From positions 1 to 26,490 of the IMG/VR virus record IMGVR_UViG_3300025732_000232: a stretch of 26,490 bases of DNA. One strand, written 5' to 3'. Source of the DNA: a virus. The position numbers were made by a program, and so were the translations under genes. The notes under the pieces are model-generated. The model did not search any database. It saw nothing but the letters and a program-made list of their open reading frames with translations, and was not told the DNA's origin. Below are positions 3,579 through 24,961 of this stretch, one piece after another; the stretch's first letter is position 1, and each line of letters begins with the position of its first letter.

Positions 3579-4397
3579 TCAGAGCGTGTCCGTGCCGCTG
3601 ACGGTCCCTGATTCGCGGTAGCGGAGCGACGCCCACGCCTCGGCCAGTGACAGCGAGAGTTCCCTCTGGAGGATCGCCGCTACCTCGCCCTGCGTCTGCA
3701 GCCACGCCGTCTCGACGGGCGGCTGGCCGGAAGTGCCGCCCGCAGGCATGGCCGGGATCACGATCGGCGAAGACGACTTGCGGAAGAACGCTCGCGGGTA
3801 CGCCGGGTCGGTTTCGACTCGGCCGTCGCTGCCGACCTGCCTCGCGATCTTGAACGGCCCGAGGCGGTTGAACGACGACGCGATGTAGGTTTCCTTCTGC
3901 TCCTGCACCGTGTGCAGCACGCCCTTGCCGTTGACCGTCTCAGTAACGACGCCTGCGGGGGTTCTGCGGTTTCGGACGAACGGCACCGTTGGGCTGCGCC
4001 GCTGGTAGGTTCGGGCTTTGCCTTTCGTGATCTTTCGCTCGTCGGTTCCACGCTCCAGCCACCATTGATGAAAAGCACGATCCTTGCCCGCCTTGACCGA
4101 GCCGCCAGCCGCGCTTCCGAACGTCTGCCTCCCGGCCCGCGTGTAGCCTACGATTCCGACCGCCGTGCCGTCCTTCGCGTACTGGACCACCTTGCTGGCG
4201 ACAGCTCGCTTGAGGTTCCCGGTCGGACCGACCGGCGTGATCTGCCGCAGCCGCGCCACGGTCGGCCGGATTGCCTTGCGGACGGCGGCGGCGATGATGT
4301 TGGAGGCTGGCTTGGGCTGGAACACCCTGCCGATGCCGTCGATCAGTTCAGCGGCCCCTTCGACCCGCATCGTGACCCTGACGCCCGAGACAGCCAT
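3579..4397 (-). CDS. HK97 gp10-like head-tail joining protein
   Basis: A 272-residue protein between the head closure and tail terminator genes, where HK97 gp10-like proteins sit. The N-terminus (VTMRVEGAAELIDGIGRVFQ), the paired R-R-x-T-P-V-G-P-T-G-x-L-K-R block near residues 48-66 and the late YPRAFFRK block fit that family. It is longer than the common 120-170 residues because of a Lys/Arg-rich middle region (about 100-165) and an insertion around 170-200. The ATG shares a base with the upstream TAA. Likely a neck or tail-completion component; the function of the extra region is unknown. Confidence 0.78.
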   Translation of the reverse strand: MAVSGVRVTMRVEGAAELIDGIGRVFQPKPASNIIAAAVRKAIRPTVARLRQITPVGPTGNLKRAVASKVVQYAKDGTAVGIVGYTRAGRQTFGSAAGGSVKAGKDRAFHQWWLERGTDERKITKGKARTYQRRSPTVPFVRNRRTPAGVVTETVNGKGVLHTVQEQKETYIASSFNRLGPFKIARQVGSDGRVETDPAYPRAFFRKSSSPIVIPAMPAGGTSGQPPVETAWLQTQGEVAAILQRELSLSLAEAWASLRYRESGTVSGTDTL

Positions 4398-4711
4398 TAG
4401 ACGGTCTCCTGGCAGATGATCTCGTGGATGCTGCGGTTGTCCCGCTCCAGCACCGACACGATCTCAAGCGTTCGACCACGCCACGACAGCCGCATCTTCT
4501 GCGTCAGTCCTGGCAGATACCGCATCGTCACGCGATGGCTGATGTCGATCTGCTGCTGACCGGCCAGTAGGTACTCGCGAGCCGAGACGCCTTGGATGCT
4601 CGCCCATACCTCGGCGAACGTCGCCCACGACAGAATGGACTCACCCAGGCGGTTCCGATTCTCGGACGCCTGCTGCACCGTCACACGCTCTCGGAGTTTG
4701 CCAGCGTCCAT
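4397..4711 (-). CDS. Head closure / head-tail adaptor protein (SPP1 gp16-like)
   Basis: The 104-residue protein begins with the typical M-D-A-G-K-L-R-E-R-V-T-V-Q-Q segment, has a WATFAEVWASIQGV strand and helix near residues 29-43, an IDISHRVTMRY strand, and a final LEIVSVLERDNRSIHEIICQ block. These are hallmarks of the phage head-tail joining family (SPP1 gp16, HK97 gp7 type), which closes the portal channel after packaging. The start codon follows directly after the stop of the preceding gene. The next gene is the gp10-like protein, in the usual order. Confidence 0.86.
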   Translation of the reverse strand: MDAGKLRERVTVQQASENRNRLGESILSWATFAEVWASIQGVSAREYLLAGQQQIDISHRVTMRYLPGLTQKMRLSWRGRTLEIVSVLERDNRSIHEIICQETV

Positions 4712-5131
4712 TTAGCCCACGCCGTACAGCAGGATAGTGTAGGATGAGGTTTGACCAGTGACGCCAAGGTCAATGACGTTGACATACAACTCGTTTGCGA
4801 ACGAAAAGTATTCGGTCGTCGATACCCGGCTGCCGCTGCTCAAGACCGATATGCCGCCGTCTTCTGGATTGGTCAGCCTGCACCAGTTGGATGCCGCAAA
4901 ACCGACCCGCATCGGAACGCTGCTTGGCATTGTGATTTGGCCGTCCGCTCCACGGTATTCATACGCTGACGGCTCAATCAGCACCGCCGACGTGCCGCAC
5001 GTTCCCGTAATCACCGCCACCTTGCCAGCGGTGTACTCGGTCGAGTCCGACAGCGACACGACGTTCACCGCCGCCGTCCCGGCGGTGTCGTGAAAGATCG
5101 CGTCGATTGTGATGCGGCCGTCGAGGCTCAT
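4712..5131 (-). CDS. Unknown virion-type protein, paralogue A of a tandem pair
   Basis: I do not recognise the family. The 139-residue protein is a clear paralogue of the one encoded just upstream: both open with S-L/I-D-G-R-I-x-I-D-x-x-F-H-D-T, share E-Y-x-x-G-K-V-A-x-x-T and E-Y-R-x-A-x-G-x, and end in S-Y-T-x-x-L-Y-G. The rest is Ser/Thr/Val-rich and strand-like, without signal peptide or membrane segment. The pair is inserted between two connector genes, so a neck, whisker or capsid accessory role is plausible. ATG overlaps the previous stop by four bases (ATGA). Confidence 0.7.
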   Translation of the reverse strand: MSLDGRITIDAIFHDTAGTAAVNVVSLSDSTEYTAGKVAVITGTCGTSAVLIEPSAYEYRGADGQITMPSSVPMRVGFAASNWCRLTNPEDGGISVLSSGSRVSTTEYFSFANELYVNVIDLGVTGQTSSYTILLYGVG

Positions 5132-5523
5132 GTGCCGTAGAGAACCATGGTGTAGGAAGCGGTGCCGCCGCTGGAGTAGACGCCCAGCGAATCAGTCGGC
5201 GGATTGACGTTCAGGGGCAATACAACGACGGCCCCCGATGGAACTTCCACCGAGTTGTAGGCGTCAGAATAGACGATGTTGCCCAGGTTCGACTTGATCA
5301 CAACTCGAACGACGTTTTGGAACGAAACAAGGCTACCGCTGGCGTCACGATACTCCGTGGGCGTCAGCGGGACGTAAGAAGTCACGCCGCTCGCCGTCCT
5401 CGTCACGATGGCAACTTTTCCCGTCGCGTACTCGTCGCCTTCGTTGAAAGCCACGACCTTGAATCGCTGGCCGCTCGTGTCGTGGAACAGCACGTCGATA
5501 TTGATGCGGCCGTCGATGCTCAC
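5128..5523 (-). CDS. Unknown virion-type protein, paralogue B of a tandem pair
   Basis: This 131-residue protein is the tandem paralogue of the next gene (shared S-x-D-G-R-I-x-I-D start and S-Y-T-x-x-L-Y-G end). I chose the GTG at 5523 because it overlaps the preceding TGA as GTGA, has a GGGGA ribosome site about nine bases upstream, and aligns with the paralogue's start. A GTG at 5538 would add five residues but lacks a ribosome site. It is strand-rich, with a proline-bounded segment near residue 105. Function unknown; context suggests a head-tail neck or surface component. Confidence 0.7.
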   Translation of the reverse strand: MSIDGRINIDVLFHDTSGQRFKVVAFNEGDEYATGKVAIVTRTASGVTSYVPLTPTEYRDASGSLVSFQNVVRVVIKSNLGNIVYSDAYNSVEVPSGAVVVLPLNVNPPTDSLGVYSSGGTASYTMVLYGT

Positions 5524-6301: not shown

Positions 6302-7033
6302 TCACCCCACCTTCCATGCAGATTCCGGTGGCCGTCGCGTCTCCTGCCAGTCGTTGCAATACTGGAACACCGGCTTGCCGAGTTCCTTGCTGGGCCACGT
6401 GATGACGTATTCGCCGTGGCCGATGCAGACGCGGGGCGTGATGTAGAGCCGGTTGCCGCACGCCTTGAACTGCCTCCAGAATGAGATGTCCGAGTCGGTC
6501 CTGCCGTCCCCCCAGGAGCCGGTGGGGTCTGGCTGCTCGTGAAACCATGGCTTCGCCATGCGCCGCAGGGCACGCGTCGAAATGATCGTGCAGCCGAAGT
6601 GAGCGGTGTCAACCTGCTGGACAGGCTCGCTGAACCACTCTCGCGGCACCTGCGTGACGCCGTTCTCGGGCGGGTTGTCGAGCATATCGAGCAGCGTGAG
6701 CATCGGCCTGCCGTCCTCCCGCTTGGTCTGGAGCGGGGCCAAGGCGTCGCACTGGAACGTCATCGCCATGGCGAACAGGTGTTCGATGTTCTCCTTCGAC
6801 ACGAAGGAGTCCATGTCCAGCGTGATGATGTATTCCGTGGTCGGCTCGAACTTCTCCAGCATCCGGGTGAGCACCTGGGACCAGAACGCCCCTTGCCCGA
6901 GCGTGGGACGGATGTGCAGCGGCATCATCGCCTCGATGAAGCCGAACACGTTGATGAGCGGGCCGAACCGTGGGCCGCTCAAGATCGCCTCGCACCGGAC
7001 CTCGACCGACGAATCACCGACTTGAACCAGCAT
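6302..7033 (-). CDS. Glycosyltransferase, GT-A fold, within the head operon
   Basis: A 243-residue protein with a YIITLDMDSF segment near residues 68-77, whose D-x-D (D73, D75) fits the metal and nucleotide-sugar site of GT-A enzymes. Later features include a hydrophobic GCTIISTRALRRM segment and a D-S-D-I-S-F-W acceptor-side segment near residues 195-203. No signal peptide is present, so it should act in the cytoplasm. It sits between the decoration-type protein and the connectors, just after a strong hairpin, like an inserted accessory gene. The acceptor could be capsid protein, lipid or modified DNA. Enzyme class is likely; acceptor and donor are unknown. Confidence 0.75.
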   Translation of the reverse strand: MLVQVGDSSVEVRCEAILSGPRFGPLINVFGFIEAMMPLHIRPTLGQGAFWSQVLTRMLEKFEPTTEYIITLDMDSFVSKENIEHLFAMAMTFQCDALAPLQTKREDGRPMLTLLDMLDNPPENGVTQVPREWFSEPVQQVDTAHFGCTIISTRALRRMAKPWFHEQPDPTGSWGDGRTDSDISFWRQFKACGNRLYITPRVCIGHGEYVITWPSKELGKPVFQYCNDWQETRRPPESAWKVG

Positions 7034-10517: not shown

Positions 10518-12029
10518 GGCCCGTGCCTCGGGCAGCGCGCGGCCCACGGGAGCCGGTGGCGGCGTGGCGGGCGTGGCAGCGGCGGGGCGGTCTGCGACCC
10601 CGGCGAGAATCGCCGCAATCTGTGCGGTGTTTATGCTCGGAAACGCCGCAGCGACCATCGCCGCAGCCCCGTCCTTGCTCACGAGCCCATCGACCACCGA
10701 CTGGATGATCGCGATGAGGCCGGTGATCTGCGCTCCGTTGAGCGAGATGTCCGCGACCTGCGGCTCCTCGGGCTGTGCCGGTGCCGCAGGCTCGCCTTCC
10801 GCCGCCGCCGCCACACCGCCCTCGACGGCCTGCCCGTCGATGCCGCTGTCGGGCTGCTGCTGGGCCAGCACATCGTCGACAGAAGGCGGCGCACCAAGCG
10901 TCCCCATGTTGAGCGGCCGATAGCGTTCGTCGCCGCCCTCGACTGGATCGAGGTTCTCGCTGGCTCTGATATCGTTCGTCGAAACGACGCCGATGTCCCA
11001 CATCGCCCGGTTGTACGCGGCACGGCTCGCGGAGTCGCCACGCAGCAGGCCACGCACGTCGAACTCGATGAGGTAGCGATCGTCGTCTCCGAGCAGGTCA
11101 CGCATCATCGCCGTCTCGATGCGGCGCAGCAGCGGGACGATGGTGTGCGTCACAAACTCGATCTCGGCCTGCGGCGTGCTTGGCTCTAGGCCGAGCAGGT
11201 AGCCGGGGCACCGGAAAAGTCTGGCGATCTCGCGCAACTGGTACTGCCGAAGTTCCAAAAACTGAGCATCACTGTTGCTGCTCTGCGGAATATCGTACGG
11301 CTTGAGGCCGCCGGTCAGCACCGCCGTCTCGTGCGAGTTGCCGACGCCGCCGTGCCGCCGGTTCCACTGCGAGCGGAGCATCTCGCGGGCCTCGGCGTTG
11401 AGTTGCCCGTCGGTGGACAACACGAAGCCGGGGCGTGCCCCGGCTGCGAAAAACCGCTCGCCGTGGAGTTCGCACGCCCGCGCAAGCGCGATAGCCGCCT
11501 TGCACTCCTCAACGATCTTGATGCCGTTCACGCCGTCGTCGGACGGGCCGCGAATGTGAAGGATCAAATCCTGTGCGATAGGCCGCTCTTGGCCGCTGGC
11601 CTCGCGGTACTTGTACCGCAGGCTGCCGTTCTCGACCCGCTCGTTCTTCATGCGGCTGGGGTGCAGCGGCTCGATCTTCCCAGCCTTGAGTTCGGAGAAC
11701 GCGTCGCCCCACAGGTCGAGGTGCATAACCAACTGCTCTCGCCACTCAAACGAAGTTTGCCAGCCGTTCGGCTGTGTGTGCAGTTGGCGGTAGAGAGGCA
11801 GTTCGCGGGCGATCCGCTTGCCGCCTCGCGGCGTTCGCTCGTACACATGCAGCGGCAGGCTGGCGACCGTCTCCGCACGGATGCGGACGCATGAGAAAAC
11901 CGCAGACACGGTGTGAGCGTTGTCGGCGTTGATCCTGACGCCTGCACTGCTGCGGCTCGGGGAGTCCTCGTCCCACGAGTCCATGCGCTCCTCGCCGGGG
12001 AGCCAGAGGATGCGGTTGTCAGCGATCAT
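10215..12029 (-). CDS. Portal protein with C-terminal HAD-like domain
   Basis: A 604-residue protein; residues about 30-400 are an HK97-type portal (VFSCVRIRAETVASLPLHVY near the start, LRQYQLREIARLFRCPGYLL in the middle, and an ASRAAYNRAMWDIGV helix with an SENLDPVEGGD block). Portals form the dodecameric DNA channel at the capsid vertex. An Ala/Pro-rich linker and a helical L-N-G-A-Q-I-T-G-L segment (about 445-490) lead to residues 505-604, which carry all four HAD motifs: D-F-D-R-T (D510, D512), V-V-M-I-S (S540), a Lys near 573, and D-D (589-590). The ATG at 12029 overlaps the terminase stop (ATGA). The fused enzyme-like domain is unusual. Confidence 0.93.
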   Translation of the reverse strand: MIADNRILWLPGEERMDSWDEDSPSRSSAGVRINADNAHTVSAVFSCVRIRAETVASLPLHVYERTPRGGKRIARELPLYRQLHTQPNGWQTSFEWREQLVMHLDLWGDAFSELKAGKIEPLHPSRMKNERVENGSLRYKYREASGQERPIAQDLILHIRGPSDDGVNGIKIVEECKAAIALARACELHGERFFAAGARPGFVLSTDGQLNAEAREMLRSQWNRRHGGVGNSHETAVLTGGLKPYDIPQSSNSDAQFLELRQYQLREIARLFRCPGYLLGLEPSTPQAEIEFVTHTIVPLLRRIETAMMRDLLGDDDRYLIEFDVRGLLRGDSASRAAYNRAMWDIGVVSTNDIRASENLDPVEGGDERYRPLNMGTLGAPPSVDDVLAQQQPDSGIDGQAVEGGVAAAAEGEPAAPAQPEEPQVADISLNGAQITGLIAIIQSVVDGLVSKDGAAAMVAAAFPSINTAQIAAILAGVADRPAAATPATPPPAPVGRALPEARAMTISIDFDRTFAADPQLWGEFARKSVADGNTVVMISRRPEEDREKVISSLGEYAESFSQVLLVGGDTLKAEAAEAAGIDVDVWVDDSPQTIKEPSGDGEV

Positions 12030-13633
12030 ATGAAGAAGATTTCTGGTGTGTCCGGCGGCTTCTGCTCGTTGCCCATCCAGCATCCGATGGCCTGACACAA
12101 GGCAACGATGCCGTCGATTCGTTCCGTGGACTTGGCCTTGCTTGGGAAAATGTTCCCGTACCGATCCTCTTGGACGGCGACGTTTCCGGCGCACCACGAC
12201 AGCACCGGGTGGCCGTTGTGCCGAACCTTGGAGTTGGTGATCAAGTTCTCCAGCGACTTGGCAGGCGCGCTCATGGCGCGGCCGCCCTGCGGGTATCCTC
12301 GCACCTCCACCCCGTCCCCTTGCAGCATATTGGCGATCATCTGCCCGTTGAACTTGAGATCGACGGCCAACTGCCGAACGCCGTACTGGGAGCAGATTTC
12401 GGTGATGTCGCGGTGGAGGACGGTGTAGTCGGTCACGTTCCCGTCCGTGACCTTGATGAACCCGTCGCGAATCCAGCCGAGATAGTCCACCTTGTCGCGG
12501 TTCGTCCGCTCCACGGCGTTCGCCTCGGGAATCCAGAAGAACGGCAGAACGTCGATGCTGCCGTCCTCGGTGTCGGGGCAGATCAGCACGAGGGCCGTGA
12601 GGTCGTAGGTGGTCGCGAGGTCGAGGCCCGCGTAGACGGGCCGGTCGCCGAAGTCGCGGAGCGGCAGGGAGCCTTGCTGCCACGTTTCCGGCGACAGCCA
12701 GCGAACATCGGAGGTCGTCCACGTATTGAGCCGGTATCGGAGAAACGAGTTCAACTTCGTCGGCGACTGCTCGGCTTCCTTCGCGTCCGCTGCGAAAACG
12801 TCCTCCTTGATCGTCACGCCCCACGACGGGTTCGCCTGCGGCCAAACGTCGGGGTCTTTCCAATCGGCGTCCTCCTCCATCTCGTAGATGCAGGAAAAGA
12901 ACGACGGGTCGTGCTTCCAGTTCGCCGCGACCGCCTTGGCGTACTGGTACTGCTCGTAGCAGATGCCCTTGCGGTCGTAGCCCGCCGTCGTGATCGACAC
13001 GAGGAGCGGCTGCTCCCGTGCTGCACCGCCGTAGCGGAGGGCGTCCCAGAGACGGCGATCTTTCTGGGCGTGCAACTCATCGAACAGCAGGCCGTGAATG
13101 TTCAAGCCTTCCGCGCGGAACGCGTCGGCGGAAAGGACGCGGTAGAACGACGCCTCCTTGCGGTAGGCGATCGTGCGGCGGGAGTCGATGACCTCAAGCA
13201 CCTGTGAGAGTTGCGGCGACGCCCGCACCATGCTCGCGGCCTCGCGGTAGACCACCGAGGCTTGCTCACGATCTGCAGCCGCGCCGTAGACCTCGGCACC
13301 GTTCTCGCCGTCCATGACGAGCAGGTAGAGCCCGATGCCCGCGAGCAGGGTGGACTTGCCCTGCTTCTTCGCCGTCGAGATGTAGGCCACGCGGTAGCGG
13401 CGGGTATCGTCGGCGAGCCGCTTCCAGCCGAACAACTCGCCGATCATCACGGCCTGCCACTCAAGCAGCGTGAACGGCTGGCCTGCGTGCTTGCCCTTGC
13501 TGTGCCGCAGCCAGCCCTCGAAAAACTCGATGGCGTGCTTCGCGGCCTCGGGGTCGAAGTAGTAGTCAAGCCCCTGACGAGCGGCGTCGCTTCGCAGCGT
13601 AGGCGGCAACCGGGTCTGTATCTGCGTTTCCAT
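12026..13633 (-). CDS. Terminase large subunit (HK97 type)
   Basis: The 535-residue protein is the DNA-packaging motor ATPase and nuclease. The ATPase part has a Walker A-type S-T-A-K-K-Q-G-K-S-T at residues 86-95 and a Walker B G-L-L-F-D-E at 181-186. The nuclease part begins with V-Y-A-G-L-D-L-A near 333-340 (metal-binding D338), followed by conserved D-L-K-F-N-G-Q-M-I and the N-S-K-V-R-H-N-G-H-P-V-L-S-W block. It starts at an ATG inside the small terminase gene (68-base overlap, weak AGGT site) and ends overlapping the portal ATG. Confidence 0.95.
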   Translation of the reverse strand: METQIQTRLPPTLRSDAARQGLDYYFDPEAAKHAIEFFEGWLRHSKGKHAGQPFTLLEWQAVMIGELFGWKRLADDTRRYRVAYISTAKKQGKSTLLAGIGLYLLVMDGENGAEVYGAAADREQASVVYREAASMVRASPQLSQVLEVIDSRRTIAYRKEASFYRVLSADAFRAEGLNIHGLLFDELHAQKDRRLWDALRYGGAAREQPLLVSITTAGYDRKGICYEQYQYAKAVAANWKHDPSFFSCIYEMEEDADWKDPDVWPQANPSWGVTIKEDVFAADAKEAEQSPTKLNSFLRYRLNTWTTSDVRWLSPETWQQGSLPLRDFGDRPVYAGLDLATTYDLTALVLICPDTEDGSIDVLPFFWIPEANAVERTNRDKVDYLGWIRDGFIKVTDGNVTDYTVLHRDITEICSQYGVRQLAVDLKFNGQMIANMLQGDGVEVRGYPQGGRAMSAPAKSLENLITNSKVRHNGHPVLSWCAGNVAVQEDRYGNIFPSKAKSTERIDGIVALCQAIGCWMGNEQKPPDTPEIFFI

Positions 13634-14093
13634 TCGTCGATACCTGCGACCGGCTGCTCGGGTTCAAGCCGAAGTCTTGCTGCATCCGGCGGATGTCGCT
13701 GCGGAGCGACCGCTCATCGACGGCCCACGAGTGCGGCTGCGTCCACTTGATCCGCAACTTCCCGTCGGTGCGATTCGGGTCTGTCTCCATCATCACGTTG
13801 TCGCGGCCGAACTGCTTGCACTTCGACTTCGCCTCCAGCCACTTAGACCATGCGTGGCAATAGATCGCCCATGCGTCGATGTCGGCCTCGGTGAACACCC
13901 GCATCCGCCGCAGCATCGGCACGGTGTCGTTCCACTTCTTGACCGCCACCGGGTCGTCGGCAATCGACTCGGGCGGATCGAGGTTGTCGAGCAGTTCTGG
14001 CGTAGGCTCGTTCGACGGCAGAGCGTCCTTCGACGGGTTGCCGCGAATGTATTTGAGGATCGACGGTTCGGGGGCGGGGCCGCGTTTGCCCAT
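13566..14093 (-). CDS. Terminase small subunit (P27 family)
   Basis: The 175-residue protein opens with the signature M-G-K-R-G-P-A-P-E-P-x-I-L-K and R-G-N-P-S-K block of P27-type small terminases, followed by an LRRMRVFTEADIDAWAIYC helix pair and an R-S-D-I-R-R-M-Q-Q-D-F-G-L-N-P segment at 138-150. It recognises phage DNA and loads the large subunit. A basic C-terminus (A-K-R-R-R-S) may contact DNA. It lies six bases after the TAGT gene stop; its ribosome site is weak, so translation may depend on that gene. Confidence 0.92.
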   Translation of the reverse strand: MGKRGPAPEPSILKYIRGNPSKDALPSNEPTPELLDNLDPPESIADDPVAVKKWNDTVPMLRRMRVFTEADIDAWAIYCHAWSKWLEAKSKCKQFGRDNVMMETDPNRTDGKLRIKWTQPHSWAVDERSLRSDIRRMQQDFGLNPSSRSQVSTNGNADTDPVAAYAAKRRRSSGA

Positions 14094-14099
14094 TTGGTC

Positions 14100-14972
14100 T
14101 TAGTTCCAAGGTGGAGGAGGGGCGAACTTTCGAGTCGCAGCGATCACTGCACGCTCGCATTGCTGGATCTGTTTGCTGTTCATCGTACGCCGTAAAACCA
14201 CGTGACTTCCATCAGGCCATCCTGCCTTCTTCGCGTATCGAATCAAACGCGGATAGGTCTTCACAAGGTGCTCTGCTTCGACAAGTTTTTGTGGTGTTCT
14301 CTGCTCGATGCTTCCGTATGCTCCTGCGGTGTATCTCTTACAGTCTGGAAGCACCCATTGGTTGACAACAACACACCCGAATCTTTCGATGTTCTTTGCC
14401 GTCCAGCAAAGATCGTCGATCATTTGGGCTTTTGTGTCGAATCGCATGGATGACTTCTGGACAACCCAAGCACGCCCGTCAGCGAGTACGTTGAATCTCC
14501 ACTTTGCGTCACGAAACACCGGGTTTTCGATTCCGCAAAAACCGCCGAGCTTAGCCCCAACAGCGCCGCACGCAGCCACCACCTCGTTGGCTCGCCTCAT
14601 GAAAGAACTGAGGCTCAACTGCTTCTTGAACAACCCCCGAAACTGCGATTGGTTGTCGATTGAGATTCCAAGCCTCGTGTCTGACCTCGCATCGTAGTCT
14701 TGGAGTTCCGTTACCTTTTTGAGATCGTCCACGAAGAAGACAGCCCATTCGCCATCGTCCATCATCTCGAGCGCGGCATTTCTGTTGTTTGCGAGGCCTT
14801 TTGGCATGCCGGTTGCGACGATGTTGTTTTTATCAACGCGTCCGCACTCGATGAACCGCTTCTTTGCTTCTTCCGTGTGGCACAGCACTGTGTGATCCAC
14901 TCCGCTTTCCTTTAGCATCAACGGCGTACTGATTGAGTCATATCGGTCGTAGGTGAAAACGAAAACTTTCAT
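14100..14972 (-). CDS. TET-associated glycosyltransferase (TAGT)
   Basis: A 290-residue GT-A-type enzyme. Visible marks are the VFVFTYDRYDSISTP start (residues 3-17), the VDHTVLCHTEEAKKRF strand-helix (25-40), a G-M-P-K-G-L-A-N-N-R-N-A-A-L block (55-68), and F-F-V-D-D-L with the metal-binding Asp pair D82-D83. I recognise this pattern as the TAGT family, found beside phage TET/JBP dioxygenases, where it transfers sugar to the hydroxymethyl group of oxidised cytosine. The ATG overlaps the TET stop by four bases (ATGA). GC is visibly lower than in the terminase genes. The donor sugar is unknown. Confidence 0.85.
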   Translation of the reverse strand: MKVFVFTYDRYDSISTPLMLKESGVDHTVLCHTEEAKKRFIECGRVDKNNIVATGMPKGLANNRNAALEMMDDGEWAVFFVDDLKKVTELQDYDARSDTRLGISIDNQSQFRGLFKKQLSLSSFMRRANEVVAACGAVGAKLGGFCGIENPVFRDAKWRFNVLADGRAWVVQKSSMRFDTKAQMIDDLCWTAKNIERFGCVVVNQWVLPDCKRYTAGAYGSIEQRTPQKLVEAEHLVKTYPRLIRYAKKAGWPDGSHVVLRRTMNSKQIQQCERAVIAATRKFAPPPPWN

Positions 14973-15898
14973 TGGTTGCCGCCAACGAGCGGCTCTCCTC
15001 TCTTGCGGTTCTTTGCCCAGTCGATTTCGTCTTTTGCTGACCGGCAGTGAATCATCTTCTCGCGGTAGTAGAAGACGAGCGTGATTCGCTCATAGCCGAG
15101 GCGCATCCGCGTAAAACCGGTGTTGCTATGCCACTCATGGACGTCCGCGAGGCATAGGCAACCGTGAGCAAAGTTCACGGCAACTCGGTACGCAGGGAAC
15201 ACCAGATACGCTCCGTCGTACTTGTCGTTCCGCAGGCAAGACATGACGCCAAACCCGGCGTGCAGGTCACCAGCGTCCTTGTGCGTGGCCGTCTGGAAGT
15301 TCTTGTTAACCGTGACGGTCGTGAACGTGCTTTGCGGAATGACCCAATCCGATGCCGTGCGACTGGCGTATTCACGTTGCACGGCCCAACGATCAGGCAT
15401 GAACTCGCGGAAGCCCTCGTCGGCTCGCTCGATGTATGGGAGAAACCGCTGCCATGCCGCTGCCTGAGAAATGAGGAATGACGTCTGCCTGCAAAATGGG
15501 AACCTCGCGGAGCGGTCGAAGTATCCGACAATGCCGCTTTCCACCGCGCCACCGCGAGTAGTGTTGCTGATCGTTCCATCTTCTTTGATGGTGCGGAAGT
15601 GCGTCTTTGAGTGGGCTGCGATTGGGCGATGCGTTCCAAGTTCGACCTTCGTCAAATCCCCCGCTGCCATTCCGCGGTTGTTTGTTTTTGTCGCGGCTTT
15701 TCGGCACGCCGGAATGACTGACTTGCACAACGCGTCACTGAACCATCGAGGCCGGTACTTCACGAGCGGCGAGCCGTCCGGCTTAAACACTTCGCACGGC
15801 TCATCGCCGCCGAGCAGCACGTCGTAGTGCGACTCGTCGAGTTTGGTTCCGGCGAGGTGGTCGGCGTCAAACTTCGCCTTACAGTGATGCACTTGCAC
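14969..15898 (-). CDS. TET/JBP-family 2-oxoglutarate/Fe(II) DNA dioxygenase
   Basis: A 309-residue protein with the double-stranded beta-helix iron site: T-H-K-D (H206, D208) within TVTVNKNFQTATHKDAGDLH, a distal His in A-D-V-H-E-W-H-S-N (H254 or H257), and Arg residues in R-M-R-L-G-Y-E-R that can bind 2-oxoglutarate. The asparagine just before the HxD and the following G-D-L fit TET/JBP enzymes. Phage TETs oxidise 5-methylcytosine in DNA to hydroxymethylcytosine. The GTG at 15898 has GGAGG nine bases upstream inside the ParB-like gene (20-base overlap). With TAGT downstream this forms a hypermodification pair. Substrate base is inferred; thymine is an alternative. Confidence 0.88.
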   Translation of the reverse strand: MQVHHCKAKFDADHLAGTKLDESHYDVLLGGDEPCEVFKPDGSPLVKYRPRWFSDALCKSVIPACRKAATKTNNRGMAAGDLTKVELGTHRPIAAHSKTHFRTIKEDGTISNTTRGGAVESGIVGYFDRSARFPFCRQTSFLISQAAAWQRFLPYIERADEGFREFMPDRWAVQREYASRTASDWVIPQSTFTTVTVNKNFQTATHKDAGDLHAGFGVMSCLRNDKYDGAYLVFPAYRVAVNFAHGCLCLADVHEWHSNTGFTRMRLGYERITLVFYYREKMIHCRSAKDEIDWAKNRKRGEPLVGGNQ

Positions 15899-16517
15899 GC
15901 TTCACTGCCTCCAGAACCGTGTCGGTGACGTTCGCTGTCCCGTAGGCCTCGCCGAGCAAGTCGCACGCTGCATGGAACTCGTCGATGTTGGACTCGTCCA
16001 AAAACAACTGCACCATGCGGACACCGCTCGGCGGGGGGTCCGTGTTTAGCGGCTCTTCTTGTTCTTCTTCCTCGTCAGTCGCTTCATCCTCCGGGTTCAA
16101 CGATTCGTATATGCCAGCAGCGTTTGCAGTAAAGGTGATCAGTTGTTGAAGTGCTTCACTGTCCGTGTTGACAGTGTGAAGCAGTTCTTCGAACACAGCC
16201 GCGTCGCTCTCGGCCATCGCCGCGAGCGGGTCAAGCGTGGCGAGCAACTTGTCGGCCTCTGCCTCGGTCACGTCGAGGATCAGCACAGGCACCTTGGCAT
16301 CGGCGACTGTCTCGGCTCGGAGGTGGCCGTCGATCAGCATGAGGGAGCCGTCGGGCAGTTCGCGGGCAAGGCAGGCGTCGGCCATGCCGACCTCGGCCAA
16401 GACGCCCCGCAAGGCGTCCTGCTGGGCCTTCGGGTGCGTCCGCCAGTTCTTCGGGTTCGGCAACAAATCACTCGCAGGGACGCGTCGCAGTTCGCGTATC
16501 CGGTCACGAATCTTCAT
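15879..16517 (-). CDS. ParB-like (ParB/Srx fold) protein
   Basis: A 212-residue protein with the ParB core: R-V-P-A-S-D-L-L-P-N-P-K-N-W-R at 12-26, then S-L-M-L-I-D-G-H-L-R-A-E at 58-69 (the GHxR-type motif). Residues 141-160 are a very acidic linker, and 165-212 form a second domain with V-Q-L-F-L-D-E-S and N-V-T-D-T-V-L-E-A-V. This two-part layout is common in phage ParB-like proteins linked to DNA methylase genes; here no methylase is fused. Nucleotide-binding or DNA-binding roles are known in the superfamily. It opens the TET-TAGT operon after the palindrome-rich gap. Confidence 0.85.
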   Translation of the reverse strand: MKIRDRIRELRRVPASDLLPNPKNWRTHPKAQQDALRGVLAEVGMADACLARELPDGSLMLIDGHLRAETVADAKVPVLILDVTEAEADKLLATLDPLAAMAESDAAVFEELLHTVNTDSEALQQLITFTANAAGIYESLNPEDEATDEEEEQEEPLNTDPPPSGVRMVQLFLDESNIDEFHAACDLLGEAYGTANVTDTVLEAVKRASASL

Positions 16518-21366: not shown

Positions 21367-21764
21367 CACAGCGTCTCTCGCGGCAGGCTGTCGATGATCT
21401 CCTGCAAGTCCTCGGTCAGCGGGACCGGCTCCATCACGAACGCGGTCGGCTTCTGCACTTGCCGATGGGCACGCACCTCGTCGGTCCACTGACACGTCAC
21501 GCACGTCGCTCGCGCCGCGACCATCGGGGCGAGGTCGAGGCTGGCTTCGCTGGCGGCGATCTCCTCGGGCGTAGGCCGCTCGGAGCGAGGAGGGCGGTAT
21601 CGCAGTCTGCGATCGTTGCGGAGCGGCAGCGGCAGGACGTTCCGCAACCGGACGAGTTGATCCTTCGTGATCGTCCAGTACGAGCAGATGGCCGCGTATG
21701 ACGAGTGGCTTGACCACTGCACACGAAGGGTCGCCAGCTCGATGCGTGACGTGTCACCCGCCAT
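21363..21764 (-). CDS. Unknown protein (133 aa), downstream of glycosyltransferase
   Basis: A 133-residue protein with an N-terminal I-E-L-A-T-L-R-V-Q-W strand, then a basic region (R-N-D-R-R-L-R-Y-R-P-P-R-S) near 49-61 and an acidic C-terminal half. A single C-V-T-C pair (88-91) is too little to call a zinc site. No family recognised. The ATG shares a base with the glycosyltransferase stop (TGATG). Function unknown. Confidence 0.6.
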   Translation of the reverse strand: MAGDTSRIELATLRVQWSSHSSYAAICSYWTITKDQLVRLRNVLPLPLRNDRRLRYRPPRSERPTPEEIAASEASLDLAPMVAARATCVTCQWTDEVRAHRQVQKPTAFVMEPVPLTEDLQEIIDSLPRETLW

Positions 21765-22660
21765 CAGGAATCAGGAATCCAGAAGGAGACGCACCGCATC
21801 GACGGGTTCAACGCCATGCGGGTGCGACCAGGGCCGCCGTAGTAGTCGCCGGGATCGTGCAGGGCTTTCTCCGCGATGCTGCGATGGAACGTGACGTGCT
21901 CGCAGTCGCTGCCGTCGTACGAGCCGCTCAGGTACGAGCCGCCGTCGTAGATCGCCAACTGACCGAACGCGGACCGGAACTCGACCGGCGGGCTGCCGAC
22001 CGCCGGATGCCAAAGATGAAACCAGTTTTGATCCCGCCGCTGCCAACCATTGAGCCTCGCGGCGAAGGCGTCGTAATGGAACGCCATCGGCGGCGTGTTC
22101 GGCTGCTCCCACTCGCTCCACGAGTACGAGGCCAGGGCGTAGAGCGAGTCGTCGTGCTGCATCTGTGCCACGCTGTTCGCCACGCCGTCCACGCTCCAGC
22201 CGCCCCACGGGTCCGTGTCGAACACAATCACGTAGTCCACCGGGTCGCTGTTGCGGACGAACTGCTGGCACGCCGCCCGGTACTGGGCCAGGGCGTGGGT
22301 CCGCACCGGAGCCGTGGTGTAGTTGAGGTGCGGCCTGCCGTTGATGTTGAGGCTGACGTGCCGCTGCTGCCCGTCGCTCCAGGCGGCGAGGACCGCCTTC
22401 GTGTCGTCGGCCGAGTCGTTCTCGTAGACGAAGCACGACGCCTCGCGGAACATCGCCCCCGTCTCCTCCACGAGCGCGAGCGTGCGGGGCAGCCAAGGCA
22501 TCGCGTTGCGGCAGATGGCCACCATCGCCACGGTCTTGTCGCGGGCGATCTCGCGGCCGTGCTGCACCGCCGCCGCGTAGTCCTCCGCGAACTCCGCGTC
22601 GGGCGGCAGGAGCACGTCGGGATGATGCCGCTCGATGTCGTCTAGTGTGACGGTTGCCAT
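21764..22660 (-). CDS. Glycosyltransferase (CAP59/GT69-like)
   Basis: A 298-residue protein with a GT-A type core: V-A-I-C-R-N-A-M-P-W-L-P-R-T near 47-60, V-Y-E-N-D-S-A-D-D-T (78-87), R-T-H-A-L-A-Q-Y-R-A-A (120-130), and the metal-binding D-x-D in V-I-V-F-D-T-D-P-W-G-G-W (D148, D150). The combination of E-N-D-S and F-D-x-D resembles CAP59-type mannosyltransferases. No signal peptide, so cytoplasmic. The ATG lies next to element A of a shared 32-bp sequence. Sugar donor and acceptor are not predictable; the phage's own DNA sugar or a virion glycoprotein are candidates. Confidence 0.8.
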   Translation of the reverse strand: MATVTLDDIERHHPDVLLPPDAEFAEDYAAAVQHGREIARDKTVAMVAICRNAMPWLPRTLALVEETGAMFREASCFVYENDSADDTKAVLAAWSDGQQRHVSLNINGRPHLNYTTAPVRTHALAQYRAACQQFVRNSDPVDYVIVFDTDPWGGWSVDGVANSVAQMQHDDSLYALASYSWSEWEQPNTPPMAFHYDAFAARLNGWQRRDQNWFHLWHPAVGSPPVEFRSAFGQLAIYDGGSYLSGSYDGSDCEHVTFHRSIAEKALHDPGDYYGGPGRTRMALNPSMRCVSFWIPDS

Positions 22661-22686
22661 GCCCGCAGGATGGCGGGCGTGTCAAG
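22655..22686 (-). promoter_or_regulatory. Shared junction element A (TTGACA-containing)
   Basis: A 32-base segment, CTTGACACGCC onward, is 25/32 identical to element B at 25351-25382. It overlaps the stop of the upstream gene and the ATG of the glycosyltransferase. It contains TTGACA, a perfect -35 type hexamer, with G-C-A-T-G-G seventeen bases later, a poor -10. Within it, GCCCGC and GCGGGC form a six-bp hairpin stem. Confidence 0.45.
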
Positions 22687-22996
22687 TAGACCGGTCGTCG
22701 AGCAGCAACTGGCACATCGCCTTGATCTCGTTCAGCAGGTCCATCGCCAAAGAATCACCAGCAACTTCAAGGCGAGCAGCCGCCCGTCCGGAATAGTTGG
22801 CCGTCAAAAATCTCTCCGCTTGCTCTCGTCTGACGTAAAACCTCTTCGGCCTTCCTTTCGACATGTAGTCGATGTCATCGTTTTTGATCGCTCGGAGCAA
22901 TGCGGCGTACTCGCCGCTAGCCCCGCCGCACGACTTGTCCTCCCTGGTGTCGTACGAAGCAACGGGTACCCATTCCTGGGATATGTCAGGCTCCAT
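22682..22996 (-). CDS. Small protein, possible winged-helix/HTH DNA-binding (104 aa)
   Basis: A 104-residue acidic protein. The segment Y-A-A-L-L-R-A-I-K-N-D-D-I-D-Y (about 30-44) followed by R-P-K-R-F-Y-V-R-R-E-Q-A-E-R-F-L resembles a small excisionase-like or MerR-like winged helix. A helix follows (M-D-L-L-N-E-I-K-A-M-C-Q-L-L-L). It overlaps the previous gene by 11 bases and sits amid glycosyltransferase genes. A regulator is possible, but I have no family match and the call is tentative. Confidence 0.55.
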   Translation of the reverse strand: MEPDISQEWVPVASYDTREDKSCGGASGEYAALLRAIKNDDIDYMSKGRPKRFYVRREQAERFLTANYSGRAAARLEVAGDSLAMDLLNEIKAMCQLLLDDRST

Positions 22997-23627
22997 CTTG
23001 TTCTCCTTTGGTAAGCGGCCACTCGTGATGCACGAGCCTGCCGGTCACGGCCATCGTCGTCAGTTCCGGGTACGCGTACGTTCCGACCACGCTGAGTTCA
23101 TCCGGTCCACGCTCGCCGCCTTCGTGGTTGTGCATCGTCTTGATCGAGAGGGCAGGGTTGACGACCTCGTAGCCCGCGTTCATCGCCGCGCCGCAGATCG
23201 CCTGATCGCAGCCGATGTAACCCAGCGGGATGCCGTCACCAACGCCGACAAGTTCGCCGCCGACCCAGGCCCACACGTCCTGCGACCCGGAATAGAACCG
23301 CTCGTTGCGGTACTGCCCGATCATGCGTGGCGAGGCGTTCGACTCCCATCGCGTCAGTGTCACGAGCCGCTTCGGCCGCACGACGCCTGGAATCAGACGA
23401 GCGGTGTAGTCGAACTGGATGTCGGCGTTGGCCAGGACGCATACCTGACCGGGGTGCTTCTCCGCTGCGAGCCGGAACGCGTGGGCGTACTGCAGCCGTT
23501 CGTCGCCGTTGCTCAGCGGCATGATTTCCGCGAACACGCCGAGGGCCATGTTGGCCTCAAACGTGGCATTGATTTCGCCAAGCCGCTTGGGATCGCTCGG
23601 CACGTAATGCTCGACCATGAGGATCAT
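22986..23627 (-). CDS. Glycosyltransferase-like protein (GT-A type)
   Basis: A 213-residue protein with the pattern C-V-L-A-N-A-D-I-Q-F-D (D69, D73) of GT-A metal sites, following a helix (Q-Y-A-H-A-F-R-L-A-A-E). Later segments include R-E-x-x-Y-S-G-S-Q-D-V-W-A-W-type residues and L-G-Y-I-G-C-D-Q-A-I-C near 140-150. The ATG overlaps the preceding gene's stop by four bases (ATGA). It is less clear than the other glycosyltransferases; it may be a divergent hexosyl- or acyltransferase-like protein. Confidence 0.62.
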   Translation of the reverse strand: MILMVEHYVPSDPKRLGEINATFEANMALGVFAEIMPLSNGDERLQYAHAFRLAAEKHPGQVCVLANADIQFDYTARLIPGVVRPKRLVTLTRWESNASPRMIGQYRNERFYSGSQDVWAWVGGELVGVGDGIPLGYIGCDQAICGAAMNAGYEVVNPALSIKTMHNHEGGERGPDELSVVGTYAYPELTTMAVTGRLVHHEWPLTKGEQDGA

Positions 23628-24322
23628 AATCGCGGCTCCACCTCGGTGAAGTCGAGCACTAGTTCTTCGTCCAGATCATCCGCCGTGACCGGCACATGGT
23701 GGTACTTCGCGTGCCACTCTGGCCCGGAGACGTGCGTGCCCTTCTCGGCTCCGATGTTCTGGATGCGGCTCACGGTCGGGAACGCCTCCCATCGCGTGCC
23801 ACGCAGCACGTCGTTGACCACGATATCCCAAGAGGCACCGTCCTTGCTGGTCCACCGCTCCCGCATCTCGGCCCAGCGGTTGATCCACGTTCCCCAGCCC
23901 CACGGCGTGAACCACCGCCGCCGCCCGCACTCGTGAAGCCTGCCGTTGCTCTGCTGCTGGTAGCCGCTCACCGTGAACACGTTCTGATGGTGGCGGTACT
24001 TGTCCCTGGCCCACGAGAACCAGAGCAAGGCATCGCGGGTCGGCACCGTGTCGTCCTCAAAGTGCAAATGGAACTCCGACTGCATGACCTCGAATCCATA
24101 CCGCAGGGCCGTATAGATCGCGTCGTTGCAGCCTGCGTGGGCGACGAAGACGTGCGACTCCCAGCCGTGGGACTCCGCGATTTCGACGCACTGCTCGGTC
24201 TCGGCACACGGATCGAGCAGCACGACGACGCGGCAACTCGCCACGCCGATGCACCGCGACACCGCGTGGCAGGTCTGCGCAAGGTACTCCGGTCGGTTGT
24301 AGCCGCTGATCGTGATGTTCAT
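23624..24322 (-). CDS. Glycosyltransferase (GT-A type)
   Basis: A 232-residue protein opening with the typical I-T-I-S-G-Y-N-R-P-E-Y-L start of GT2/GT13-like enzymes, a V-V-V-L-L-D-P-C strand (32-39), and the catalytic-type H-F-E-D-D-T-V-P-T-R-D-A-L (E89, D90, D91). The C-terminal part has W-F-T-P-W-G-W-G-T-W, near residues 136-145, common in GT13-related enzymes. No membrane segment. Start chosen at the ATG at 24322, which overlaps the methyltransferase stop (ATGA). A longer frame upstream is a shadow. Acceptor unknown. Confidence 0.8.
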   Translation of the reverse strand: MNITISGYNRPEYLAQTCHAVSRCIGVASCRVVVLLDPCAETEQCVEIAESHGWESHVFVAHAGCNDAIYTALRYGFEVMQSEFHLHFEDDTVPTRDALLWFSWARDKYRHHQNVFTVSGYQQQSNGRLHECGRRRWFTPWGWGTWINRWAEMRERWTSKDGASWDIVVNDVLRGTRWEAFPTVSRIQNIGAEKGTHVSGPEWHAKYHHVPVTADDLDEELVLDFTEVEPRL

Positions 24323-24900
24323 TCGATCTTGGTGCACCATGCCACGAGCAGGCCGTTCCAGTAGCCGTCGCTGTCGTTGAGCCTCGCGCTCGGGTAGATG
24401 TTCTGCGAGTCGATCCGCATCTTCCCGGCGTGCGCCTCGATCCCGGCATCGCAGCCACGCCGAACCTTGTCCCACGAGTAGTCGTCCACGATGTAGAGGA
24501 ACGACCGGTCGAGGTGCGGCCACGCCACCGCAAGTTCTGCCGCGTGCTGCTCCTCGTCGTGCGGCCCGTCGTAGAGGTACACGTTGAACTTCTCGCCGCC
24601 GAAGGTGTCGGCGGTGATGTCGCGAAAGAAATCGAGGTCGTGAATGGTCGAGGGCAGGAGGAACCGCAGGCAGGTTCCCGCGAGCGCGGCGTCGGTGCGG
24701 CCGAACTCGCTGTGGTTGTCCACCATGTGGATCGACTGCACGTCGTTGCCGTGGCACATCGCCACGGCGGTCGAGCCCATGTAGGAGCCGACCTCCAGAA
24801 TCCGGGCGCGAGGGATCGCCGCCACGGCACGGTTGAGGATCAGGCGGTTCGCCGCAGACGAAAATCCCTGCAGCGCGAGCACGTCGTCCCAGGTCGGCAT
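24319..24900 (-). CDS. SAM-dependent methyltransferase (Methyltransf_24-like)
   Basis: A 193-residue class I methyltransferase. Motif I is I-L-E-V-G-S-Y-M-G-S-T (34-44); a further acidic end M-V-D-N-H (59-63) would bind the SAM ribose, and L-Y-D-G-P-H is the family's acidic strand end. This group (TylF/Methyltransf_24) often methylates sugars or small metabolites and not DNA bases. Start at the ATG at 24900 has AGGAG seven bases upstream, better than the upstream start. With the glycosyltransferase that overlaps it, a sugar-decorating role is likely. It should not supply cytosine methylation. Confidence 0.8.
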   Translation of the reverse strand: MPTWDDVLALQGFSSAANRLILNRAVAAIPRARILEVGSYMGSTAVAMCHGNDVQSIHMVDNHSEFGRTDAALAGTCLRFLLPSTIHDLDFFRDITADTFGGEKFNVYLYDGPHDEEQHAAELAVAWPHLDRSFLYIVDDYSWDKVRRGCDAGIEAHAGKMRIDSQNIYPSARLNDSDGYWNGLLVAWCTKIE

Positions 24901-24921
24901 GTCAGGCTCCTCGTGCGAACA

Positions 24922-24961
24922 CCACCGGCTGGCGGGCTTGGGCGGCACCGCCAGCCGGTGG
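24922..24961 (-). terminator. Perfect 14-bp stem hairpin between accessory and sugar genes
   Basis: Perfect 14-bp stem (24922-24935 with 24948-24961) and a 12-base loop, lying 12 bases after the secreted protein stop on the minus strand. It lacks a U-run, so it may be a stem-only terminator, an attenuator or mRNA-stabilising structure. It separates the secreted protein gene from the methyltransferase/glycosyltransferase cluster. Confidence 0.55.

Follow-up and report, generated by a model that had tools for sequence, protein, structure and literature searches.

A ParB-TET-glycosyltransferase cassette in a tailed phage and the case for thymine as its substrate

Three overlapping genes of a tailed phage, encoding a ParB-like protein, a TET/JBP dioxygenase and a TAGT-like glycosyltransferase (GT), form a cassette which, as judged from gene families and gene order, very probably oxidises a base in the phage's own DNA and adds a sugar to it. 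The DNA analysed, referred to here as the window, is a virus record 26,490 bases long, a fragment of a genome. The initial annotation had predicted glycosylated 5-hydroxymethylcytosine (5hmC), made from 5-methylcytosine (5mC). The oxidise-then-glycosylate part of that prediction is well supported, whereas comparison with related loci does not support its cytosine part. Instead, we lean towards a reading in which thymine would be oxidised to 5-hydroxymethyluracil in DNA by TET and then glycosylated, giving the phage a protective analogue of base J. A broader proposal, that the whole phage clade makes true base J by ParB-assisted action of TET on thymine, with the sugar as one of the choices offered by an exchangeable tailoring slot, is about evenly balanced between true and false.

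Results

The cassette and its genomic setting

The minus strand of the window carries the genes of a tailed phage, which encode the tape measure, tail terminator, major capsid protein, prohead protease, portal and the large (TerL) and small (TerS) terminase subunits. The cassette consists of three minus-strand open reading frames (ORFs) located directly upstream of the terminase genes. The features of this region are:

15879..16517, minus strand: ParB-like protein, first gene of the cassette; ATG start, 212 amino acids; assigned by PHROG match
14969..15898, minus strand: TET/JBP Fe(II)/2OG dioxygenase; GTG start, 309 amino acids; assigned by Pfam PF12851, fold and motif
15899..15912, minus strand: Shine-Dalgarno-like GGAGG plus spacer, upstream of the TET GTG and within parB; assigned from the sequence and relatives
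14100..14972, minus strand: divergent TAGT-like GT-A glycosyltransferase, in the variable slot between TET and terS; ATG start, 290 amino acids; assigned by PHROG 842 and hhalign
13566..14093, minus strand: terminase small subunit, the landmark that closes the slot; Pfam Terminase_4, 1.5e-15
12026..13633, minus strand: terminase large subunit, a landmark; Pfam TerL_nuclease, 8e-43, and TerL_ATPase, 2e-28

The parB and TET genes overlap by exactly 20 bases and the TET and GT genes by exactly 4, so that the place, order and overlaps first described for the three genes are all confirmed. Only 6 bases lie between the GT stop and the terS start. The GGAGG sits 9 bases 5' of the TET GTG, and both the GTG start and a GGAGGC-like site are kept in most of the ten relatives checked. 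Elsewhere on the minus strand, at 21764-24948 and 6302-7033, the window has more GT2-like genes, one of which lies among the capsid genes, as well as a Methyltransf_24 gene. These perhaps serve glycosylation of the virion or another target unrelated to DNA.

The dioxygenase is a TET enzyme

Assignment of the dioxygenase to the TET family is secure. The protein scores 72.3 bits against Pfam PF12851 (TET_JBP), for which the cut-off is 34.9 (E 3.4e-20). Its metal ligands are H206, D208 and H257, and the 2OG-binding arginine is R271; these four residues are conserved in practically all of ~220 relatives. The T-H-K-D motif corresponds to T205-H206-K207-D208, with H206-x-D208 inside it, and the earlier identification of a TET/JBP enzyme from this motif, a distal His and an Arg is upheld by both the profile score and the conserved residues. 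H254 was considered as the distal His and ruled out, as the TET clade associated with C5-methyltransferases lacks it; the distal His is H257.

An AlphaFold (AF2) model of the protein made with a 74-member alignment has a pLDDT of 95 and a pTM of 0.91; this alignment was used instead of one of 16 close sequences, which gave a pLDDT of 37.6. In VIA-align, the model matches human TET2 (Z 21.9), NgTET1 of Naegleria (19.2), CMD1 (18.4) and CcTET (17.5), whereas AlkB-type enzymes reach at most 14.7, and the fold is thus distinct from that of AlkB. A broad TET profile searched against the PDB found TET2, and a narrow one returned no match. A genome scan of prokaryotes for the window TET yielded no relative, and no prophage or host was identified in this way. 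Phage TET dioxygenases are widely annotated as "queuine tRNA-ribosyltransferase" and elsewhere as "SNF2 DNA repair protein" or "DnaJ chaperone"; mislabelled examples include PHROG 6059, L363:776-1744 and many mycobacteriophage gene 2 entries.

The glycosyltransferase and ParB-like protein

The third protein had been called TAGT-type, and this holds in a qualified form: a remote or divergent TAGT, GT-A-like, is supported by comparison of profiles. With hhalign, which aligns profile to profile, the match to bona fide TAGTs has an E of 2.3e-7 and a probability of 93.5 over 200 columns, and residues R10, R64, D82-D83 and D187 are kept in the alignment. The protein scores 16.5 bits against Pfam TAGT (PF20691), below the 27.5 cut-off and over the first 83 residues only; its match to PHROG 842 has an E of 6e-5. 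A local iterated TAGT profile scored it highly and was set aside as circular in favour of hhalign. Among the 26 closest loci, orthologues of this GT are confined to L006, L007, L012 and L013.

The ParB-like protein matches PHROG 498, a family of ParB-methyltransferase proteins, at 1.5e-12 and PHROG 620 at 3.4e-9. It has no Pfam match, PF02195 included; the syntenic ParB homologue of phage HTVC112P passes PF02195 (ParB_N) at 2.9e-10. ParB domains are frequent companions of DNA-modifying enzymes (PMC12783734), and it is proposed that here ParB is a DNA-binding or targeting partner of TET.

Phage TET enzymes form two clades with different partners

A total of 215 loci was compared, 144 on the side of the window and 71 in the clade that includes Methylophilales phage Melnitz. 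In the tree, a fully supported branch splits the TETs into these two clades, and the window TET falls on the side marked by ParB. There, ParB lies beside TET in 135 of 144 loci, and the remaining nine lie at a contig start or close to one; because the order recurs in this way, ParB-TET is not a chance arrangement. A C5-methyltransferase occurs within 5 kb in two loci of the 144, where it lies 2-4 kb upstream of ParB (L226:5351-6322 and L227:5763-7112). The Melnitz-type clade is the reverse: a C5-cytosine methyltransferase sits beside TET in 66 of 71 loci, TET is at the contig start in the other five, and ParB is found in none. The Fisher P for this contrast, ~1e-46, overstates the independent support, as the contrast represents one evolutionary split.

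The clades also differ in what follows TET and in the predicted pocket. The amino acid:DNA transferase (ADDT) occurs in 47 of 144 loci on the window side versus none of 71 on the Melnitz side. At the position of TET2 H1904, the window's subclade and those next to it have Arg, the actinophage subclade has Leu and the C5-methyltransferase clade has Asp, so that, by alignment, the pockets are not the same. A second pocket residue, D211, which aligns with TET2 N1387, is shared, the same Asp being present in the C5-methyltransferase clade. The kinase is likewise found on both sides, as 27 of the 71 Melnitz-type loci have one. In 23 of these 71 (for example L051, L130 and L156) the order is C5-methyltransferase-TET-kinase, which suggests phosphorylated 5-hydroxymethylcytosine as a product.

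The gene behind TET is exchangeable

The slot between TET and the terminase genes was surveyed in 32 loci: the window, 26 IMG/VR relatives and five more. The ParB-TET pair is kept in the 26 relatives and TerS-TerL follow the slot in most; a few carry a second ParB gene or have a different kind of terminase behind the slot. The slot itself contains the window-type GT (five loci), other TAGTs (six), a radical-SAM/SPASM protein with a protein of unknown family and a TAGT (five), a protein that is GT-B-like by eye and lacks a database match (seven), ADDT plus a P-loop kinase (eight, once with a PLP enzyme) or an FkbM methyltransferase (one). A base-tailoring candidate, whether GT, ADDT-kinase, radical SAM-TAGT or FkbM, stands directly after TET in every legible relative of the window clade. 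Since the content varies behind a kept ParB-TET pair, it is the last step that is exchanged and TET that is the constant part.

Module exchange reaches the closest relatives of the window. The TETs nearest to it on the tree, those of L014 and L017, are both followed by a transferase-kinase module, and TETs 79-80% identical to the window's precede ADDT and P-loop kinase genes (L014); L026 is a further close relative with ADDT and kinase. The window record has no ADDT, and its TET is followed by a GT instead of a kinase and transferase. On the ParB side, the tree places at least 12 switches between GT and kinase/ADDT modules, so that one and the same oxidised base must serve as acceptor for either type.

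Several slots hold further ORFs of interest. The radical SAM/SPASM arrangement occurs in L019, L020, L024, L025 and L027 (10913-13526). The GT-B-like candidate is a 315-amino-acid protein matching neither Pfam nor PHROG (L003:1625-2569, L004, L005 and L008-L011). The 3.3-kb slot of L014 (2207-5509) also has, by eye, amidoligase-like, LMW-phosphatase-like and class II glutamine amidotransferase-like ORFs, and that of L017 has an ORF between ADDT and kinase (4181-5434) that resembles, by eye, an H-x-D/H hydroxylase. Tandem ParB genes precede TET in L014, L021-L023, L026 and L172. Gene 3 of Nigel (L363:1786-2382) and of KayaCho (L364:1802-2377) is labelled "terminase small subunit" and matches the profile of the TET-linked P-loop kinase at ~9e-27; PHROG 800 carries the same label, yet matches the L014 kinase. 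In these cases the label looks wrong.

Search for a source of 5-methylcytosine or of modified nucleotides

PF00145, the C5-methyltransferase family, was not found in the window, an incomplete record, nor in two relatives that are complete by end overlap (G003 and G022). A third complete relative, G026 (L028), has a partial match of 25 bits. More widely, the search for a C5-methyltransferase was negative in 26 of 27 long ParB-TET contigs and in 14 of 15 complete isolates; the exception among the isolates is Melnitz, so that the count on the window's side of the tree is 0 of 14. The 43 non-structural ORFs of G022 include no recognised DNA methyltransferase, and the N6/N4-methyltransferase family is present in one of 28 ParB-TET-side records. 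Relatives such as HTVC112P have hosts in the SAR11 group, and a survey of 39 genomes from that group found a C5-methyltransferase above the cut-off in six. The thymidylate-synthase family, which includes the nucleotide-level hydroxymethylases, was found only in Cr30, and a nucleotide-level route is set aside because of its absence elsewhere.

Discussion

Thymine as the probable substrate

With no methyltransferase feeding TET, thymine is the sole 5-methylpyrimidine that is always present. A route from thymine to 5-hydroxymethyluracil and a sugar is, on this genomic comparison, at least as likely as the route from 5mC. In the mechanism that we infer, modification would be post-replicative: TET, guided or assisted by co-translated ParB, would oxidise the 5-methyl group of thymine to give 5-hydroxymethyluracil, the reaction that JBP carries out in kinetoplastids. 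A sugar would then be attached to the hydroxymethyl group by the TAGT-like enzyme, and the resulting base-J-like glycosyl-hydroxymethyluracil may protect phage DNA against nucleases of the host. In this scheme the dioxygenase would be the constant core, and the last gene an exchangeable tailoring module for a sugar or for an amino acid (kinase plus transferase), or else a radical-SAM module or an FkbM methyltransferase.

The kinases and transferases that act on 5hmdU belong to the thymidine pathway (PMC6449724), and a TET homologue of a Mycobacterium phage is annotated "thymidine hydroxylase". The P-loop kinase was considered as proof of 5-hydroxymethyluracil and was dropped, as it also follows C5-methyltransferase-TET pairs. 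Since the kinase alone is not specific to thymine, it is ADDT and the lack of a methyltransferase that carry the argument for thymine.

Alternatives to thymine

The alternative that survives best, although we regard it as rather unlikely, is that TET oxidises 5mC to 5hmC for glycosylation by TAGT, with 5mC from a C5-methyltransferase that either the host or the uncaptured remainder of the phage genome would encode. The Asp of NgTET1 that matches D211 contacts the amino group of cytosine; the D211 common to the window TET and the C5-methyltransferase clade could do likewise, which would favour cytosine. Phages that make glycosylated cytosine with a C5-methyltransferase, TET and glycosyltransferases are established (PMC12730594), the Melnitz-type loci have just this layout, and glucosylated hydroxymethylcytosine is what T-even TAGTs act on (PMC13216743). 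The window is a partial record, and a host methyltransferase could supply 5mC; there are also the two ParB-TET loci with a methyltransferase nearby and the partial match in G026. Against this stand the near-absence of C5-methyltransferases from the complete and long ParB-TET genomes, the restriction of ADDT modules to the ParB side, where they lie behind close orthologues of the window TET, and the Arg in place of Asp at the TET2 H1904 position. In addition, a shield dependent on host 5mC would be patchy and vary with the host. The prediction of 5mC-derived 5hmC is accordingly not borne out by the clade in which the window TET falls.

An improbable alternative is that TET is an eraser, a counter-epigenetic enzyme acting on methyl marks made by the host, and that the neighbouring GT acts elsewhere. 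TET enzymes do erase 5mC in animals and the other GT-like genes of the window are not tied to DNA, but the 4-base overlap represents translational coupling of TET and GT, and the legible relatives all have a tailoring candidate right behind TET. Action on N6-methyladenine is very improbable: CcTET of Coprinopsis, one of the structural matches, oxidises 6mA as well as 5mC (PMC12730594) and P12024L has an N6-type methyltransferase two genes downstream, but that methyltransferase family is nearly absent from ParB-TET-side records and the tailoring enzymes are those of pyrimidine pathways.

Relation to known systems

Thymine hypermodification is also the annotated function of the nearest described gene sets. 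The actinophages Tonitrus (a Rhodococcus phage), Wooper and Prince encode ParB, a Tet-like J-binding protein, aGPT-Pplase2 or ADDT, and a 5-hmU DNA kinase, and the ParB-TET-transferase-kinase set is annotated as thymidine hypermodification (PMC11955845). Like the window, they have the ParB-TET core near a terminase gene, and their complete genomes lack a C5-methyltransferase. Unlike the window, their slot holds a kinase and transferase in place of a GT, and the TETs of their subclade are only ~20% identical to the window's. Closer in order is the isolated Arthrobacter phage Altadena, in which genes 60-63 encode ParB, TET, TAGT (2.4e-36) and a deacetylase, again with no C5-methyltransferase; it differs in having a 162-bp ORF between ParB and TET and a glucosaminyl deacetylase gene after TAGT, which may point to an amino sugar on its DNA.

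Cytosine hypermodification of the Melnitz type (Burke et al. 2021, as described by papers that cite it) shares with ParB-TET loci a TET followed by TAGT or kinase tailoring genes, and differs in the methyltransferase, the lack of ParB, the separate clade and the pocket Asp described above. Base J of kinetoplastids, made by JBP1/2 and JGT, involves the steps proposed for the window, hydroxylation of thymine in DNA and then glucosylation (PMC4111573, PMC6449724); this pathway is eukaryotic. Phages M6, ViI and phiW-14 have the same classes of kinase and transferase as the slot of the window's close relatives, but these phages make 5hmdU as a nucleotide, which the polymerase then incorporates (PMC6449724), whereas the window TET would make it in DNA.

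Significance

TET enzymes in phages, C5-methyltransferase-TET-GT operons, TAGTs and thymidine hypermodification are all known. As of 2019, a phage with glycosylated hydroxymethyluracil "has not been reported" (PMC6449724). In the literature examined, no description was found of the clean dichotomy between ParB and C5-methyltransferase or of the swapping slot, parts of which may be contained in the primary phage-TET papers.

The split means that the base choice of a phage TET would be predictable from gene order, and this is testable in the isolates Altadena, Wooper, Prince and HTVC112P, of which Altadena has the ParB-TET-TAGT order. If thymine is the substrate, base J of kinetoplastids gains a phage counterpart, which bears on the origin of the JBP pathway. 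There would then be a post-replicative route to 5-hydroxymethyluracil that does not require takeover of the nucleotide pool, and a natural enzyme family that decorates thymine with groups such as sugars and amino acids. The plug-in slot would let related phages alter the chemical coat of their thymines.
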